A DNA stretch of 64,000 nucleotides from Terriglobia bacterium (GTDB lineage: Bacteria > Acidobacteriota > Terriglobia > Terriglobales > Acidobacteriaceae), in the NCBI GenBank assembly GCA_020073565.1, contig JAIQEY010000001.1, positions 62,001-126,000 on the forward strand. The letters run 5' to 3'. Numbering within the stretch: position 1 is the first letter of the stretch; every line of letters starts with the position of its first letter. The notes beneath the pieces are model-generated. The model did not search any database. It worked only from the letters and a program-made list of their open reading frames with translations, and had not been told where the DNA came from. Below are positions 7,900-52,256 of the stretch, one piece after another. Position numbers and translations under genes: made by a program.

Positions 7900-7927
7900 T
7901 TATCGGCAGTCTCGTGGTGAGAGTTTA
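7900..7927 (-). promoter_or_regulatory. Sigma28 (FliA)-type promoter for motAB
   Basis: Minus strand TAAACTCT-N12-GCCGATAA upstream of motA. Confidence 0.85.
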
Positions 7928-21662: not shown

Positions 21663-21690
21663 TAATCGGCACTTGCCCCGGAAAACTTTA
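21663..21690 (-). promoter_or_regulatory. Sigma28-type promoter for flgMNKL
   Basis: Minus strand TAAAGTTT-N12-GCCGATTA upstream of flgM. Confidence 0.9.
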
Positions 21691-27104: not shown

Positions 27105-27132
27105 TAATCGGCAGCAAACCGATTGAGCTTTA
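27105..27132 (-). promoter_or_regulatory. Sigma28-type promoter for HDOD gene
   Basis: Minus strand TAAAGCTC-N12-GCCGATTA. Confidence 0.85.
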
Positions 27133-37243: not shown

Positions 37244-39106
37244 CTACATGTGAATATCAAGTCGTGCACTGACTGCGTTCACTTCGGGATATGCGCTCTG
37301 CAGGGGCATCGATACCGCCTCTGCCGCTTGCGGGATCACAACCCGCGACGAGCTCTGGCCCTGTCGCGAACCCTGTTGGAAACCACTAGAACCGCTATCG
37401 GCGGACTGGTTCTGCAAAATAATGTTGGCGGATGAAAGCCGCTGCTCCGATAACCTGTTCTGCAAGTTTGGCAGTTCCGCCGCCAGAACCCTGCCGAGTT
37501 CATTGCGTTCTACGGAAATTTGCGCCGTGAATTGGTTGTGAGCCATGGAGGTTCGGATATCCACGTTGCCGAACTCACCTGAATGAATTCCGACCCGCAG
37601 TTCGGCCTCACCCATGCGCTGGACAAGCTTTGCGGACTGCAACAATGATGAGTAAGCAGGCGGCGCCTCGAGGTGCTTGTCCATCTCAGCCGCAACCTGT
37701 GCCGATGGAACCCCACTGTCCGCGGCATGTCGATTGTTCTTGAGAAATCCGGCGGAACTATCGTGCTTCCCACTGCCACTCGAATCGGCTACTGGTGCCG
37801 TAATCAGGTCAGCGCTGTTCGTCGCTTGGGAAGCGCTCCTAACGTCGTCTGTCTCATTCGTGGCCTCGGCCATAGATGTCTGAAAACCGCTCTTGCCGGA
37901 TTGCATCTTGGTGCTGGCCGACCCGGACGGGTTGCTGCTGGGTACCGAGAGCAGGGGCCTGTCCGGAGCCAAAGTCGAGTTTGCTCCCTGCGCGGCTGCG
38001 GGAACTCCCATGTCCTTCGTCGCAACCTGCGTGGGCATGCTAAAGACGGCGGAAAGGGTATCGACTTCAGACACTTGCGCAGGTGCGATCGGTGCCACGT
38101 CGGTCGATTGTTCGGAACGCTGTTCCGCCGGTTCGGTAATTTGCCGGTGGCTGCCGCCCTTGGGTGCGGTGCTCATCAGAGTGTTGTTGTCAGTTGCGGG
38201 TCGAATGCTACTGACAACCTGCTTGTCGGTCGGCGAAGAAGCACTCTCATCAATGGTGGCCGCCTTGAAGTCAACCTTGGGGGCAGCCTTGGAATCAGCT
38301 TTGGCTTCAGCCTTTGATTCCAGCTTGCTTACCTTCGCATCTTGAACCAGCCCGAGCTTCGACGAGGTCGGCGCCACCACTCCCTTCGGCAGCGGCGGGA
38401 CAGTGAGAGTCTCCGACGCTTGGATGGCTTGCATGGGTAGAGACTGGGGTTGAATGGTCGACTCAGGCAGCGCGCTCCCGGTTTGCCGCCTCGGAGCCGC
38501 GTCTTTTGCATCCATTGCACCAGAAACCTGCTGATTGTCTACGCGTTCTGTTGCCGGAGCAGCCGCGGTCGACTCCGCCGAGACCGCGGCTCCAAGTGGT
38601 AGGGGGGGCGCGCATGAAACTGGAGTGAGCGCGGACGTAAGTGTCGTTGCGGCTGAGGCCGTCAAGGGGATCGAGTGGACTCCGTTATCGCACACGACTG
38701 CAACAGCAGGAGCAGATCCGTTCGCCTCGGCAGTTGGTGCGGGTACAACGATCGTCGCTGGCTGAAAGGCTTGCATCGCACAAGGCATTTGAACAGTTGG
38801 AGGAACGCATTGTTGCAGAACGTCGAGGGGCGCCAGGTTTGCTGGTTGGGCAGAGTCCTTGCTCGGCGTCTTGTCACGTCCGGATGGCACGCCTTCATTG
38901 CCAGCGGCGGGGATGAGGCTCTTGCCCTGCTTGAGACTGGCGATCGGAATCGTAGTCGTCGCCGATGGAATCTGGTTTTGTTCAGCCGCCGCCGCAAGGG
39001 CCATGAGGAAATCTCCCGGAACGGCGGGAGCGGCGGCCGCGGCCTTCTCCGGGATTTCTTTTGCGGGTGTTGGTTGCACCGCAATTGGCAACAAGCTGGC
39101 GACCAC
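37244..39106 (-). CDS. fliK: Flagellar hook-length control protein FliK
   Basis: Long low-complexity N-terminus with FliK C-domain (ELRVGIHSGEFGNVDIRTSMAHNQFTAQISVERNELGRVLAAELPNLQNRLSEQ). Confidence 0.88.
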   Translation of the reverse strand: MVASLLPIAVQPTPAKEIPEKAAAAAPAVPGDFLMALAAAAEQNQIPSATTTIPIASLKQGKSLIPAAGNEGVPSGRDKTPSKDSAQPANLAPLDVLQQCVPPTVQMPCAMQAFQPATIVVPAPTAEANGSAPAVAVVCDNGVHSIPLTASAATTLTSALTPVSCAPPLPLGAAVSAESTAAAPATERVDNQQVSGAMDAKDAAPRRQTGSALPESTIQPQSLPMQAIQASETLTVPPLPKGVVAPTSSKLGLVQDAKVSKLESKAEAKADSKAAPKVDFKAATIDESASSPTDKQVVSSIRPATDNNTLMSTAPKGGSHRQITEPAEQRSEQSTDVAPIAPAQVSEVDTLSAVFSMPTQVATKDMGVPAAAQGANSTLAPDRPLLSVPSSNPSGSASTKMQSGKSGFQTSMAEATNETDDVRSASQATNSADLITAPVADSSGSGKHDSSAGFLKNNRHAADSGVPSAQVAAEMDKHLEAPPAYSSLLQSAKLVQRMGEAELRVGIHSGEFGNVDIRTSMAHNQFTAQISVERNELGRVLAAELPNLQNRLSEQRLSSANIILQNQSADSGSSGFQQGSRQGQSSSRVVIPQAAEAVSMPLQSAYPEVNAVSARLDIHM

Positions 39107-39130: not shown

Positions 39131-39146
39131 TGCACGTGCCTGGCCA
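39131..39146 (-). promoter_or_regulatory. Candidate sigma54 promoter for fliK
   Basis: Minus strand TGGCCAGGCACGTGCA: GG-N10-GC, 25 nt upstream of the GTG start. Confidence 0.6.
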
Positions 39147-39198: not shown

Positions 39199-39226
39199 TA
39201 AAGTCTTGTTGGGGAAATGCCGATTA
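39199..39226 (+). promoter_or_regulatory. Orphan sigma28-type promoter antisense to fliJ/fliI
   Basis: TAAAGTCT-N12-GCCGATTA on plus strand; no plus-strand gene downstream. Confidence 0.7.
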
Positions 39227-39259: not shown

Positions 39260-39278
39260 CTGGGCAAAGTCTGCCCAG
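39260..39278. promoter_or_regulatory. 19-bp inverted repeat, variant of CTAGGCA-N5-TGCCTAG
   Basis: CTGGGCA-AAGTC-TGCCCAG, perfect 7-bp arms. Confidence 0.6.
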
Positions 39279-39285
39279 CGATGCA

Positions 39286-39304
39286 GTGGGCAACCTCTGC
39301 CTAG
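39286..39304. promoter_or_regulatory. 19-bp inverted repeat, imperfect variant, overlapping fliJ stop codon
   Basis: GTGGGCA-ACCTC-TGCCTAG; centre 26 bp from the previous copy. Confidence 0.5.
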
Positions 39305-45129: not shown

Positions 45130-45489
45130 TTATTTGCCCCCTTCATGAATTGCCGAGAGTAGGTTCTGAAATTCGTGACGCAATAACTGGACCCCGAGCC
45201 CGAATTGCATCTGAGTTTCCGCCAGCACCAGGCCTTCGCGATCCAGGTTGACATTGTTTCCATCCGGCCTTTCCAGCAGACCGGGCACCGCCCGAACTGC
45301 AGGCATCAGATTGCCGTCGCCGCCATCTGCCATCGCACGGTTGAGCTCTCCACGAAAATCGACGTCTTTCGCCCGATATCCGGGTGTGTCGATGTTCGCC
45401 ATGTTAGAAACAACGAGCTTGTGCCGTTCCGAAGTGACATCGAGGAACTTCTCCAGCAAGTGTAAAGTCGGTGTTGAAATATCGCTCAT
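45130..45489 (-). CDS. flgB: Flagellar basal-body rod protein FlgB
   Basis: KLVVSNMANIDTPGYRAKDVDFRGELNRAM. Confidence 0.94.
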   Translation of the reverse strand: MSDISTPTLHLLEKFLDVTSERHKLVVSNMANIDTPGYRAKDVDFRGELNRAMADGGDGNLMPAVRAVPGLLERPDGNNVNLDREGLVLAETQMQFGLGVQLLRHEFQNLLSAIHEGGK

Positions 45490-46853
45490 GCATACCTCCG
45501 CGGCGGCAGGCCGTATTCCCGAATTTTGTTGCGAATCGTTCGAAGGCTGACACCGAGCATTTCCGCAGCTCGAGTTCGATTGCCTCCGGTCTGCAGTAAC
45601 GTGCTCTCAAGCAGGTGTCGCTCAAGTTCCCGCATTGAGATTCCCGGACGCGCAGCCACCGGGGAAGTTGGAATCATCGTGTGCGAGCGACCTGGATGAA
45701 TCAGTTCGTTGGCCAGGTGTTCCGCACCGATTTCGTTCGAATCGCAGAGCGTTACGACGCGCTGCATGAAATTGCCCAGTTCTCGTATGTTTCCCGGCCA
45801 CCGATGCCGCTGCAATCCGGCAACGAAATCGGGATGCAGAGTCGGCATCCTGCGCCCTGCTTCCGTAGCAAACTGCCGGGCGAACGATTCTGCCAACGCC
45901 GGAATGTCTTCTCGACGGTCCCGCAACGGTGGCAGGGTCAGCGGAATAACATTGAGCCGATAAAACAGGTCAGCCCGGAATCTACCCTCTTCCACTCGCG
46001 CCTGAAGTGACACATTGCTGGTCGCAACTACGCGGATATTCACTGCCGTCGTGCGGGTGTCGCCCAGCCTCTCGAACTCCCTTTCCTGCAAGACCCGTAG
46101 CAGCTTCGGTTGCAACGTAGCCGGCATCTCCGCAATTTCGTCCAGCAGCAGGGTCCCGCCGTCGGCCAACTCAAACCTCCCAGCTTTCGCGGCGGTGGCG
46201 CCGGTAAAAGCCCCGCGAACATGCCCAAAGAGTTCGCTTTCGAGCAACTGCTCAGGCACAGCCGCGCAGTTGACCGCCACAAACGGTTTGTTCCGCCGGG
46301 AACTATGGTCGTGGATGTAGCGTGCAAGCAGCTCTTTGCCAGTACCGCTCTCAGCCTCGATCAGTACATCCGCATTCGTGCGGGCAGCGTGCAGCGCCCG
46401 ATCCAGCGCCTTAAGCAGCGCCGGCGCACTTCCGACGATCTCGCTCTCGCGAAGTGAATCTGGCGCAGGGCTGTCTTCCACCTTGCCCATGACGCGCTCC
46501 ACCGCCGATTGCAGTTGCTCGAAGGAAATCGGCTTGGTCAGATAATCGCAAGCACCATCCTGCATGGCGCGCACTGCCTCCGGCACGGTGCCAAAAGCGG
46601 TGAGTACGATTACGGCTGTAGAGGGGCTTGAACGCCGCACGGTCCGCATCAGGTGCAAGCCATCCCCATCGGGCATGCGGACGTCGGTGACCACCAGCGG
46701 AAAACGCTGGCGGTCAAGCTTCTGAAGCGCCTCGGTAGTACCCGATGCAGTCTCCACGTGCCAGCCTTCGCGCTGAAAATTCGCTTTTAGCGCCAAACGC
46801 ATGCCCGGCTCGTCGTCCACCAGCAACACCGATTGGCAGCCCGGAGTGCTCAT
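45486..46853 (-). CDS. Sigma54-dependent NtrC-family response regulator (flagellar)
   Basis: REC (LLVDDEPGMRLALKANF), AAA+ ESGTGKELLARYIH and GAFTGATAAKAGRFELADGGTLLLDEI, Fis-type HTH; overlaps flgB and kinase genes. Confidence 0.93.
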   Translation of the reverse strand: MSTPGCQSVLLVDDEPGMRLALKANFQREGWHVETASGTTEALQKLDRQRFPLVVTDVRMPDGDGLHLMRTVRRSSPSTAVIVLTAFGTVPEAVRAMQDGACDYLTKPISFEQLQSAVERVMGKVEDSPAPDSLRESEIVGSAPALLKALDRALHAARTNADVLIEAESGTGKELLARYIHDHSSRRNKPFVAVNCAAVPEQLLESELFGHVRGAFTGATAAKAGRFELADGGTLLLDEIAEMPATLQPKLLRVLQEREFERLGDTRTTAVNIRVVATSNVSLQARVEEGRFRADLFYRLNVIPLTLPPLRDRREDIPALAESFARQFATEAGRRMPTLHPDFVAGLQRHRWPGNIRELGNFMQRVVTLCDSNEIGAEHLANELIHPGRSHTMIPTSPVAARPGISMRELERHLLESTLLQTGGNRTRAAEMLGVSLRTIRNKIREYGLPPRRYA

Positions 46854-48088
46854 AGGATTGGGAACTCCAAGCGAAATGTCGCGCCCTCGCCCTGAACGCT
46901 GCGTGCGCTGATCGTCCCTCCATGTTGCTCGACGATCCGCTGACACACCGCGAGGCCCAGGCCCGGGCTCTGGTTTATCGTGCTGAAGCCCGGTTCGAAT
47001 ATTCGGATCAAGTCGCCAGGAGCGATACCGCACCCAGTATCAGTGAACTCGATCACCGCCACCTTTCCGTTCGCGAACGATTCGACTATCGCAAGCACCG
47101 TAATTGCTCCGCCGGCCGGAGTATGTCGAAGAGCATTGCACGTCAAATTCAAGATCACTTGCTGGATGCCGGCAGCATCTGCGGCAATTTCCGCTTCTCC
47201 CAGCGACTCATGAAGATCGAGTCGCACTCCACTCTGCGTTGCCAGCGGACTGACAAAGGCGAGGCAGTTCCGAAGGACCACAGCCAGTGCTGTGGGCACC
47301 AGATAGGGGTCATCGAGATTTTGAAAGCGCAAAACGTTATTCACGGTTGCTGAAAGTGACCTAACCCCTGCCTGCAGGTGCTGAATGTATTCCTTCGAGC
47401 CAACGCTCAAGCCCGAATCCCCCGCCAGGAGACCAGTAAGCAGTTCAAGGCTGCCCAGTGGATTGCGGATTTCGTGAGCCAATACGGTCGCCATTTCTGC
47501 CAGCGCAACCACGCGACGAGATGCTTCTCTTTCTTGTTCCGCCTCTTTTCTTGTGGTCGTGTCACCCAGGATCAGAATCTTGCTGCTAGAAACGCCAAGG
47601 CCGACTGCTTCGTTTCGGGGCTTCCGCATGACGCTGCAACGCACGTTGAGCCAGCGTTTGCCGCCGTTCTGGCTGAAACAGAATTCCTGTTCGTCTATCC
47701 CGCCTGTGATCCCGCTACACGAACCGTCCACAATGGAACGCATACGCTCCGGAAAATCGGACCATTCAATTGCTTTGTCTGTGGACAAAGCGAGAAGCCT
47801 GCGTGCTTCCGGATTCACGAACAGGACTTCCCGGCCTTCGCTGTCCACGACTGCCACGCCGCACGGCAAGGCATCGAGGATCTGGCGCAACAGGACGCGC
47901 ATGCGCTCGTTCTCGGCAGCACTCGAAGCCAGTGCACGGTTCTGCTCTTCAAGTTGCGCACGCAGGCGGGCCACTTCCTCATGCAGATTGCGATGAGAGT
48001 GCTCCAGTCGATTAGCCGCTCCAATGAAATCCTGGAACGCATCGGCCAGTCCACCCCGTGTTGTGACACTCTCGGCGATCGCATTCAT
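46850..48088 (-). CDS. PAS-containing sensor histidine kinase (FleS/FlrB-like)
   Basis: ALAEMATVLAHEIRNPLGSLELLTGLL; HATPase domain; 4-nt overlap with regulator gene. Confidence 0.9.
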   Translation of the reverse strand: MNAIAESVTTRGGLADAFQDFIGAANRLEHSHRNLHEEVARLRAQLEEQNRALASSAAENERMRVLLRQILDALPCGVAVVDSEGREVLFVNPEARRLLALSTDKAIEWSDFPERMRSIVDGSCSGITGGIDEQEFCFSQNGGKRWLNVRCSVMRKPRNEAVGLGVSSSKILILGDTTTRKEAEQEREASRRVVALAEMATVLAHEIRNPLGSLELLTGLLAGDSGLSVGSKEYIQHLQAGVRSLSATVNNVLRFQNLDDPYLVPTALAVVLRNCLAFVSPLATQSGVRLDLHESLGEAEIAADAAGIQQVILNLTCNALRHTPAGGAITVLAIVESFANGKVAVIEFTDTGCGIAPGDLIRIFEPGFSTINQSPGLGLAVCQRIVEQHGGTISARSVQGEGATFRLEFPIL

Positions 48089-48104
48089 TGGAAGCAAATG
48101 AGAA

Positions 48105-48123
48105 CTAGGCAACATCTGCCTAG
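48105..48123 (-). promoter_or_regulatory. 19-bp inverted repeat, 7 bp downstream of sigma54 promoter (kinase/regulator operon)
   Basis: Minus strand CTAGGCAGATGTTGCCTAG. Confidence 0.75.
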
Positions 48124-48129
48124 CTGGAG

Positions 48130-48145
48130 TGCAACGCACCTGCCA
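48130..48145 (-). promoter_or_regulatory. Sigma54 promoter for kinase-regulator-flgBC-fliEFGHIJ operon
   Basis: Minus strand TGGCAGGTGCGTTGCA; close to TGGCACG-N4-TTGCA. Confidence 0.78.
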
Positions 48146-48226
48146 AAGCGCACATGTCGGTGGAAGCGTGCCGTAATCGGCGGTCGTATCACTTCCTCCT
48201 GAAAAGTGCAGAAGCGAGGGCTATCT

Positions 48227-48234
48227 GCCGATAA
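48227..48234 (+). promoter_or_regulatory. Isolated sigma28-like -10 (GCCGATAA) upstream of PilZ gene
   Basis: Perfect -10 octamer but no TAAA at the cluster spacing. Confidence 0.3.
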
Positions 48235-48363
48235 GAAGATCTAATCGGTCGGTCTGTCGCCCGTCCAGTCTGCGATGTGGCAGTCACCTTGCTTGCTGAA
48301 ACGATAGAAGACGTGGCCCGTGAACATGCGGCGTAGCGACTCCGCCGAGACAAGGGTTGTGAA

Positions 48364-48729
48364 ATGAAGGACAATCCACCGCGAGTCCAGGAGTTTGGCT
48401 ATCGCAAGCCGCGCTTTCGCGCGGATTTTCACCTTCTTCTCCAAACCGAAGCTCCGAATTCGCGTGTCGTTGACGCCCGTTGCACCGATATAAGCGAAGA
48501 CGGATTGGCCGCCCGCGTCACCGAACCACTCAGCCTCGGCAGCCACGTAGCTTTCATCCTGACACTCCCCGGAAGTTCAACTCCCGTCCGCATTGCGGCC
48601 ACCGTCAACAACCAGCAACAAGAAACCTACGGCTTCACCTTTGTCTTTTCCACCCAGGAAGAACGCAACCTCATTCATGCCTACCTCGCGCGTCTACAAC
48701 GCCAAGCAAGCGGGTCTCCACGGACCTGA
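48364..48729 (+). CDS. PilZ domain protein
   Basis: RKPRFRADFHLLLQTEAPNSRVVDARCTDISEDGLAARVTEPLSLGSHVAFILTLPGSSTPVRIAATV. Confidence 0.82.
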   Translation: MKDNPPRVQEFGYRKPRFRADFHLLLQTEAPNSRVVDARCTDISEDGLAARVTEPLSLGSHVAFILTLPGSSTPVRIAATVNNQQQETYGFTFVFSTQEERNLIHAYLARLQRQASGSPRT

Positions 48730-48761
48730 GGTAATTTCGGCCCGGTTCCATCACCGACTTA

Positions 48762-48777
48762 TGGCCCGTTGCGTGCG
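48762..48777 (+). promoter_or_regulatory. Sigma54 promoter for fliM operon
   Basis: TGGCCCGTTGCGTGCG; GG-N10-GC. Confidence 0.68.
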
Positions 48778-48783
48778 GAATGA

Positions 48784-48802
48784 CTAGGCAGATGTTGCCT
48801 AG
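48784..48802 (+). promoter_or_regulatory. 19-bp inverted repeat, 7 bp downstream of sigma54 promoter (fliM)
   Basis: CTAGGCAGATGTTGCCTAG, identical and co-oriented with the kinase-operon copy. Confidence 0.75.
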
Positions 48803-48843
48803 CGCTCATCGCTGTCTAATCTCGTTGCCGCCAGGACCAGAGG

Positions 48844-49818
48844 ATGGAGAGGGTACTTAACCAAGAAGAGATTGACGCGATGGTTCGCGCGGCCCGAGGG
48901 CGGGCTGACGGCGGCAAGGCCGATCAGCGCTCGATCAAGCCGTGCAGTTTCCGGCAATCAGGACAGCTGACCGGTCAGCAAATGCGATCGATCAATGGCC
49001 TACACGAAACATTTGCGCGGAGCCTCACCCAATCCCTGGGCGCCTACCTGCGGGTTCTGTTCGAAGTGAAGCTCGTCTCCGTCGAACAGCTTGCTTATGG
49101 AGAGTTTCTGGAGCGGGTGCCCGAAGTTACATACATGGTTACGTTTGTGGTACCGCAGATGTCTGCTGCCGCTGCCCTGCAGATCGACCACTCGGTGGTG
49201 TTTCCCCTGATCGATGTCTTGCTGGGTGGAAATGGGCATTGCGAAGCGCTGACCCGAGAGGTCAGCGAGATCGAAGAACAGATCATGCAAGGAGTGGGGA
49301 GCATTATCTGCCGTGAACTGGCTTATGCCTGGGCGCCTCTCGGGGTTGACATTGATCTCGAGGGACGTCAACAGGCCGCCCAGATGCAACGGTTTCTTGC
49401 TCCCACCGAGAAAACTCTCTGCCTCAGCTTCGAGGTCAAGCTGGCGGAAGCGCAGGGAACCTTGAACCTGATATTTCCGGTATCCATCTCGAATACTCTG
49501 CTACGGAAACTGTCGGCGGACTGGTCGTACGGCAAGCCTCGGGCAGTGAATCACGCCGGGCCCCGATTGCTGGAAAAGATGATGGATTGCACATTCCCAA
49601 TCACGCTGGGGATACCCACAATCCACCTTCCGATTCAAACGATTTTGACACTGGCCCCGCAAGACATCTGCGATCTCGGCCTTTCGGTCCGAAACCCGGC
49701 GTCGCTGATCGTCGCGGGCCGGCGCACGTTTGACGCCGCTCCAGTACGGCAAGGACGGATGCGCGCCGCGCAAGTGGGTGAACGCTTACCGATCCCCAAA
49801 GAGGAACGGAGACAATAA
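48844..49818 (+). CDS. fliM: Flagellar motor switch protein FliM
   Basis: VLNQEEIDAMVRAARG; LTGQQMRSINGLHETFARSLTQSLGAYLRVLFEVKLVSVEQLAYGEFLE. Confidence 0.95.
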   Translation: MERVLNQEEIDAMVRAARGRADGGKADQRSIKPCSFRQSGQLTGQQMRSINGLHETFARSLTQSLGAYLRVLFEVKLVSVEQLAYGEFLERVPEVTYMVTFVVPQMSAAAALQIDHSVVFPLIDVLLGGNGHCEALTREVSEIEEQIMQGVGSIICRELAYAWAPLGVDIDLEGRQQAAQMQRFLAPTEKTLCLSFEVKLAEAQGTLNLIFPVSISNTLLRKLSADWSYGKPRAVNHAGPRLLEKMMDCTFPITLGIPTIHLPIQTILTLAPQDICDLGLSVRNPASLIVAGRRTFDAAPVRQGRMRAAQVGERLPIPKEERRQ

Positions 49819-50787: not shown

Positions 50788-50815
50788 TAAAGTCGGGACC
50801 GACATGTGCCGATTA
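50788..50815 (+). promoter_or_regulatory. Sigma28-type promoter for cheY operon
   Basis: TAAAGTCG-N12-GCCGATTA. Confidence 0.85.
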
Positions 50816-52228: not shown

Positions 52229-52256
52229 TAAAGTTCAGTACCGGTTTGGCCGATTA
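52229..52256 (+). promoter_or_regulatory. Sigma28-type promoter for EAL-HDOD gene
   Basis: TAAAGTTC-N12-GCCGATTA, 6 nt before the start codon. Confidence 0.85.

Follow-up and report, generated by a model that had tools for sequence, protein, structure and literature searches.

Within the window (the whole 64-kb stretch of DNA that was analysed), two sigma54-type promoters of flagellar operons are each followed by the same 19-bp palindrome, and this raises the question of which protein recognizes this element and what it does at a position where transcription is predicted to begin.

Identical palindromes at two early flagellar promoters

Read in the direction of transcription, the promoter of the operon that contains the kinase and regulator genes, flgBC, and fliEFGHIJ has the order TGGCAGGTGCGTTGC-ACTCCAG-CTAGGCAGATGTTGCCTAG on the minus strand and that of fliM-fliN has the order TGGCCCGTTGCGTGC-GGAATGA-CTAGGCAGATGTTGCCTAG on the plus strand (Table 1). 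It had been claimed in the earlier note that the two 19-mers are identical and in the same orientation and that the 7-bp gaps differ in their letters, and the sequence and the coordinates match this exactly. The placement of the 19-mer at -4 to +15 is predicted from the GC element of the promoter. There are only two perfect CTAGGCA-N5-TGCCTAG palindromes in the 6.1 Mb genome and both lie 7 bp past a GG-N10-GC element, one at the kinase promoter and the other at the fliM promoter. A PWM scan of the window at a threshold of at least 9 bits gave four sites: the two 19-mers plus two copies in tandem ahead of fliK. Near the kinase and fliM promoters no further copies of the motif were found by the motif scan or by comparison across relatives.

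Table 1. Features of the flagellar locus, with positions in the window
Feature	Position	Strand	Basis
fliK (hook-length control); leader and GAGGAG before GTG	37244..39106	-	sequence, domains
sigma54-type promoter of fliK, TGGCCAGGCACGTGC	39132..39146	-	sequence and comparison
fliK enhancer copy 1, CTGGGCAGACTTTGCCCAG on the minus strand	39260..39278	-	motif scan; 5/5 genomes
fliK enhancer copy 2, CTAGGCAGAGGTTGCCCAC on the minus strand	39286..39304	-	motif scan; 5/5 genomes
NtrC-type regulator with REC, AAA+ and Fis-type HTH (HTH_8); candidate binder	45486..46853	-	domains
PAS/HisKA/HATPase kinase; start assigned to spacer ATG 48115-48113 (MLPSSHLLPMNA...)	46850..48115	-	domains; in-frame ATG in relatives and paralogues
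Candidate 19-mer operator of the kinase operon, CTAGGCAGATGTTGCCTAG	48105..48123	-	sequence; predicted -4 to +15
sigma54-type promoter of kinase-regulator-flgBC-fliEFGHIJ, TGGCAGGTGCGTTGC	48131..48145	-	sequence; GG-N10-GC in 5/5 genomes
sigma54-type promoter of fliM-fliN, TGGCCCGTTGCGTGC	48762..48776	+	sequence and comparison
Candidate 19-mer operator of fliM, CTAGGCAGATGTTGCCTAG; spacer ATG 48792-48794	48784..48802	+	sequence
Putative 22-codon leader ORF (MLPSAHRCLI...), overlaps fliM start	48792..48860	+	suggestive only
fliM	48844..49818	+	TIGR01397 match, under its cut-off

Five genomes carry this flagellar system: the window's genome, G012 (apparently the record bog_256, PLBE01000098), G015, JOPF126 (G437), and CRAIB_MAG101 (G438). 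The compared genomes are kin, and the counts given here are not independent trials; the element-bearing genomes are seemingly all draft assemblies and several are metagenome-assembled. The promoter, the 7-bp gap, and the palindrome are kept in these related flagellar genomes. The gap is constant in all ten promoter-proximal copies from the five genomes while its letters vary. Nine of these copies, five at kinase genes and four at fliM/fliN, align without a gap from the GG and GC through the 7-bp gap to GGCAGATGTTGCCTAG, past which CTCA follows at a fixed position and then a TCYAAT-like block. The tenth, which precedes a fliM in G012, keeps the 7-bp gap and has GATTA as its spacer. Among about 85,000 species genomes the exact 19-mer was found at five loci when about two were expected by chance (hand calculation). 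Four of the five are Acidobacteriota flagellar loci whose promoters, within the upstream DNA that is present, have identical geometry, and the fifth, in Devosia, has no adjoining sigma54-type promoter. Wide occurrence of the element was rejected because, in a draw of 399 genomes of the class that did not include G012, the exact 16-mer core was present only in the window's genome and in G015.

The two 19-mers are inverted around about 660 bp and the full 19-mer folds as RNA. They might therefore bound an invertible segment that swaps promoters or form an RNA hairpin, but we consider either very improbable. The invertible segment was rejected because it has one orientation in 4/4 genomes and G015 has a single copy of the 19-mer. 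The hairpin was rejected because changes in the outer arms are uncompensated and because RNA from the predicted start folds no better than shuffled sequences.

A tandem pair of the motif upstream of fliK

The relaxed motif pair upstream of fliK, which the earlier note had missed, precedes TGGCCAGGCACGTGC by about 115-160 bp. In 5/5 genomes with this flagellar system two copies 25-26 bp apart are followed by GG-N10-GC and fliK. The standard enhancer of an NtrC-type protein consists of paired sites some way upstream of the sigma54-type promoter. Since the fliK pair has this enhancer layout, the NtrC-type regulator encoded in the kinase operon is the likely binder, and by extension the 19-mers are likely to be bound by this flagellar regulator. 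Its gene is directly preceded by the PAS kinase gene in the same flagellar operon. No master regulator with a FleQ domain (PF06490) was found in this genome. The regulator scores 360.5 bits against the curated FlbD model NF050807, which is below the cut-off of 750, and thus we call it FlbD-like in its working and not a FlbD. With about 30 sigma54 activators encoded in the genome, another protein might bind both 19-mers and share its motif with the fliK enhancers by chance. We give this little credence because an enhancer of this geometry implies a bEBP, the operon that would be controlled contains the gene of the regulator, and the HTH of the regulator is near-identical among the five genomes.

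Between the enhancer pair and the sigma54 promoter of fliK there is also a sigma28-type promoter, TAAA-N16-GCCGAT, at 39199-39224 on the plus strand. It is on the strand opposite to fliK and is directed across the enhancers, antisense into fliJ, and its spacing is the same in 5/5 genomes, with ACCGAT in one. FliA-driven antisense transcription from it could be an off-switch for the hook operon. Other sigma28-type promoters with N16 are at 7902-7927 (-), 21665-21690 (-), 27107-27132 (-), 50788-50813 (+), and 52229-52254 (+), giving six in the 64-kb window against 0.29 expected.

A second flagellar gene cluster, on contig C29 (L041, L042), includes a separate fliM, kinase, regulator, and HTH-less bEBP. 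A GCGGCA-N5-TGCCGC-like site lies ahead of its fliK, and no site of the 19-mer motif with at least 9 bits was found in the stretches of contig C29 that were scanned.

The start-site copies and the kinase start codon

The copies at the predicted start sites differ from those in the enhancers. The spacer GATGT is present in 9/10 start-site copies and in 0/10 enhancer copies, CTCA at the start-site position is likewise absent from all ten enhancer copies, and an ATG is present in all ten start-site copies, the leftmost base of which is variable. GATGT and the fixed CTCA, being confined to the start-site copies, show that these are constrained beyond regulator binding. The ATG in the GATGT spacer sits 15 nt past the GC element and in 5/5 genomes shares the reading frame of the kinase, whose N-terminus read from this ATG is MLPSSHxxPM in all five. 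It appears, then, that GATGT is fixed because of the kinase start codon. Within the genus, kinase genes of the second flagellar system have an in-frame ATG 12-15 nt past the GC in 17/17 cases, these being the ones with a scored promoter and start, and in other families of the class the kinase ATG is 12-20 nt past the GC in 10/11, many of the N-termini being of the M..LP type. With these 27 further loci and the five above there are 32 kinase genes with an ATG 12-20 nt past the GC. Transcripts from sigma54 promoters usually begin about 12 nt past the GC, and given this distance the kinase mRNAs should be nearly leaderless. In the window the kinase mRNA is thus probably nearly leaderless and the predicted operator would cover the transcription start and the start codon together.

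Leaderless genes have been predicted at about 13% in Acidobacteria (PMC3160421). The kinase genes would resemble bacterial leaderless genes if, as predicted, their mRNAs begin at the start codon or very close to it, but those predictions use Pribnow-like signals whereas the promoter here is of the sigma54 type (PMC3160421). Nearly leaderless genes driven by sigma54 would probably be overlooked by Pribnow-based predictions.

The proposal in the earlier note that the element is a site for the regulator is largely supported, in that the predicted site covers the predicted start at both sigma54-type promoters and shares its motif with the fliK enhancer in 5/5 genomes. What it did not foresee is that the GATGT spacer and the sequence past the palindrome are constrained beyond an operator role. 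Alternatively, the element might serve chiefly as a start region for transcription and translation, with a near-leaderless ATG and its first codons, that spread by duplication from the kinase to fliM; the palindrome would then be incidental to regulation there. Such a view accommodates the ATG in 10/10 copies, the conservation that runs on downstream as CTCAY-N5-TCYAAT, the variable leftmost base, and the near-leaderless kinase starts across the class. We nevertheless regard it as improbable because the palindrome arms match the fliK enhancers, the fliM copy of G012 keeps the arms and the 7-bp gap though its spacer and peptide have changed, and the kinases of the second system show the start geometry without the palindrome.

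The CTCAY-N5-TCYAAT block, which in the window lies downstream of both 19-mers, persists even in a copy with a shifted reading frame. This block falls outside what the operator model accounts for and counts against that model.

The fliM/fliN side

At fliM/fliN the spacer ATG opens a short ORF that stops at the gene start in 5/5 cases, the stops beginning at +14, -4, -7, +14, and -7 from the fliM/fliN start. For stops so near the gene start, the null values from shuffling are, in the same order, 0.79, 0.03, 0.09, 0.73, and 0.04, and a leader ORF that ends at the fliM/fliN start is therefore suggestive. In the tenth copy, that of G012, the peptide differs and its ATG is displaced by 3 nt; an ATG and an open frame to fliM are retained. 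A conserved leader peptide as such is disfavoured because this second fliM copy of G012 shifts the frame and CTCAT and TAAT stay. Between the divergent promoters there is a small PilZ-domain gene (48364-48729, plus strand), which is found there in four genomes and always in the fliM direction.

Candidate activators of the early promoters

No enhancer of this motif, nor any other palindrome common to four genomes, was found between the two early promoters. This raises the question of how these promoters are activated. One answer is positive autoregulation, in which the regulator bound at -4 to +15 would be a promoter-proximal activator of both operons that works without a remote enhancer. That there is no enhancer copy elsewhere near either promoter and that the spacing from the promoter is fixed in 10/10 copies agree with it. 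On the other hand, the open complex would cover the site, which extends over the predicted start, the copies in enhancer position at fliK are a tandem pair as against single copies at the early promoters, and there is a candidate alternative activator. We therefore think positive autoregulation unlikely, although it is the least improbable of the rival explanations.

This candidate is a bEBP that has an AAA+ domain and a weak REC-like domain but lacks an HTH. In G015 and in the second system its gene is directly upstream of the kinase gene. Orthologues that are 60-62% identical to the G015 protein are present in the other four genomes with the first system; in this genome the gene is at C98:118444-119571 (L104 1498-2679, minus strand), which is on another contig and far from the flagellar cluster. 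FlgR of Helicobacter pylori is a flagellar bEBP without a DNA-binding domain that activates from solution (PMC3930126). The HTH-less bEBP likewise has no DNA-binding domain, but unlike FlgR it stands beside an HTH-bearing regulator and its REC-like domain is weak. The HTH-less bEBP could drive the early promoters, as their want of enhancers would fit an activator that acts from solution, although the separate contig of its gene in this genome counts against this.

Relation to known systems and a proposed circuit

The precedent of Caulobacter crescentus FlbD that had been invoked for repression near the start is apt: FlbD activates hook genes and represses the early gene fliF through one motif, the ftr sites (PMC3930126). 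The likeness lies in an NtrC-type regulator with an HTH that is encoded in the flagellar cluster and in a motif that is found both at hook enhancers and at early-gene starts. FlbD is said to work without a kinase (PMC3930126), whereas here a PAS kinase gene precedes that of the regulator; also unlike the FlbD case, the early promoters are of the sigma54 type and include that of the regulator's own operon, and the predicted site covers a start codon. A PAS/HisKA/HATPase kinase adjoining an NtrC-type regulator in a flagellar operon is reminiscent of FlgSR, FlrBC, and FleSR. According to PMC7064773, these consist of a cytoplasmic-type kinase and an NtrC-type regulator that are co-expressed with MS-ring and export genes and drive hook genes through sigma54. 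Feedback on early operons from an operator at the start site is not described for them in the passages of PMC7064773 that were consulted. By analogy with these systems (PMC7064773), the activity of the kinase here may depend on assembly of the MS ring, the rotor, and the export apparatus.

We propose the following circuit. The early sigma54-type operons, kinase-regulator-flgBC-fliEFGHIJ and fliM-fliN, would be switched on by an enhancer-independent activator, most likely the HTH-less bEBP. The kinase would sense a basal-body checkpoint, by analogy with the systems in PMC7064773, and then activate the regulator. The activated regulator would turn on the hook operon (fliK, flgD, flgE) from the tandem enhancer and would also occupy the start-site 19-mers, where it would block open complex formation and thereby shut off its own operon and fliM. 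In the fliM copy the ATG at the same position would serve the short leader ORF, which may hand ribosomes to fliM.

The sequence evidence for this circuit covers the shared motif, its geometry and conservation, the in-frame ATG, and the domain content, and from these we infer binding, repression, start sites, leaderless translation, and coupling. Repression is the least certain step. Activation from downstream sites is said to occur for some flagellar bEBPs, though the papers searched do not mention it, and this counts against the repressive sign. All things considered, it is reasonably probable that the 19-mer serves as a strong operator for the FlbD-like regulator, which would activate hook genes and shut off the early operons, including its own. 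More tentatively, and with less than even confidence, we suggest that the 19-mer may be three things in one, the predicted operator of an assembly-sensing regulator, a sigma54 start, and a near-leaderless start codon, that these were copied together to fliM, with the codon there starting a coupling leader ORF, and that the promoter is driven from solution by an HTH-less activator.

A full-text literature search found no dedicated study of sigma54 control of flagellar genes in Acidobacteria. The circuit provides a testable wiring diagram for the order of flagellar gene expression in a group of soil Acidobacteria, and it illustrates how negative feedback might be set with single-base precision.
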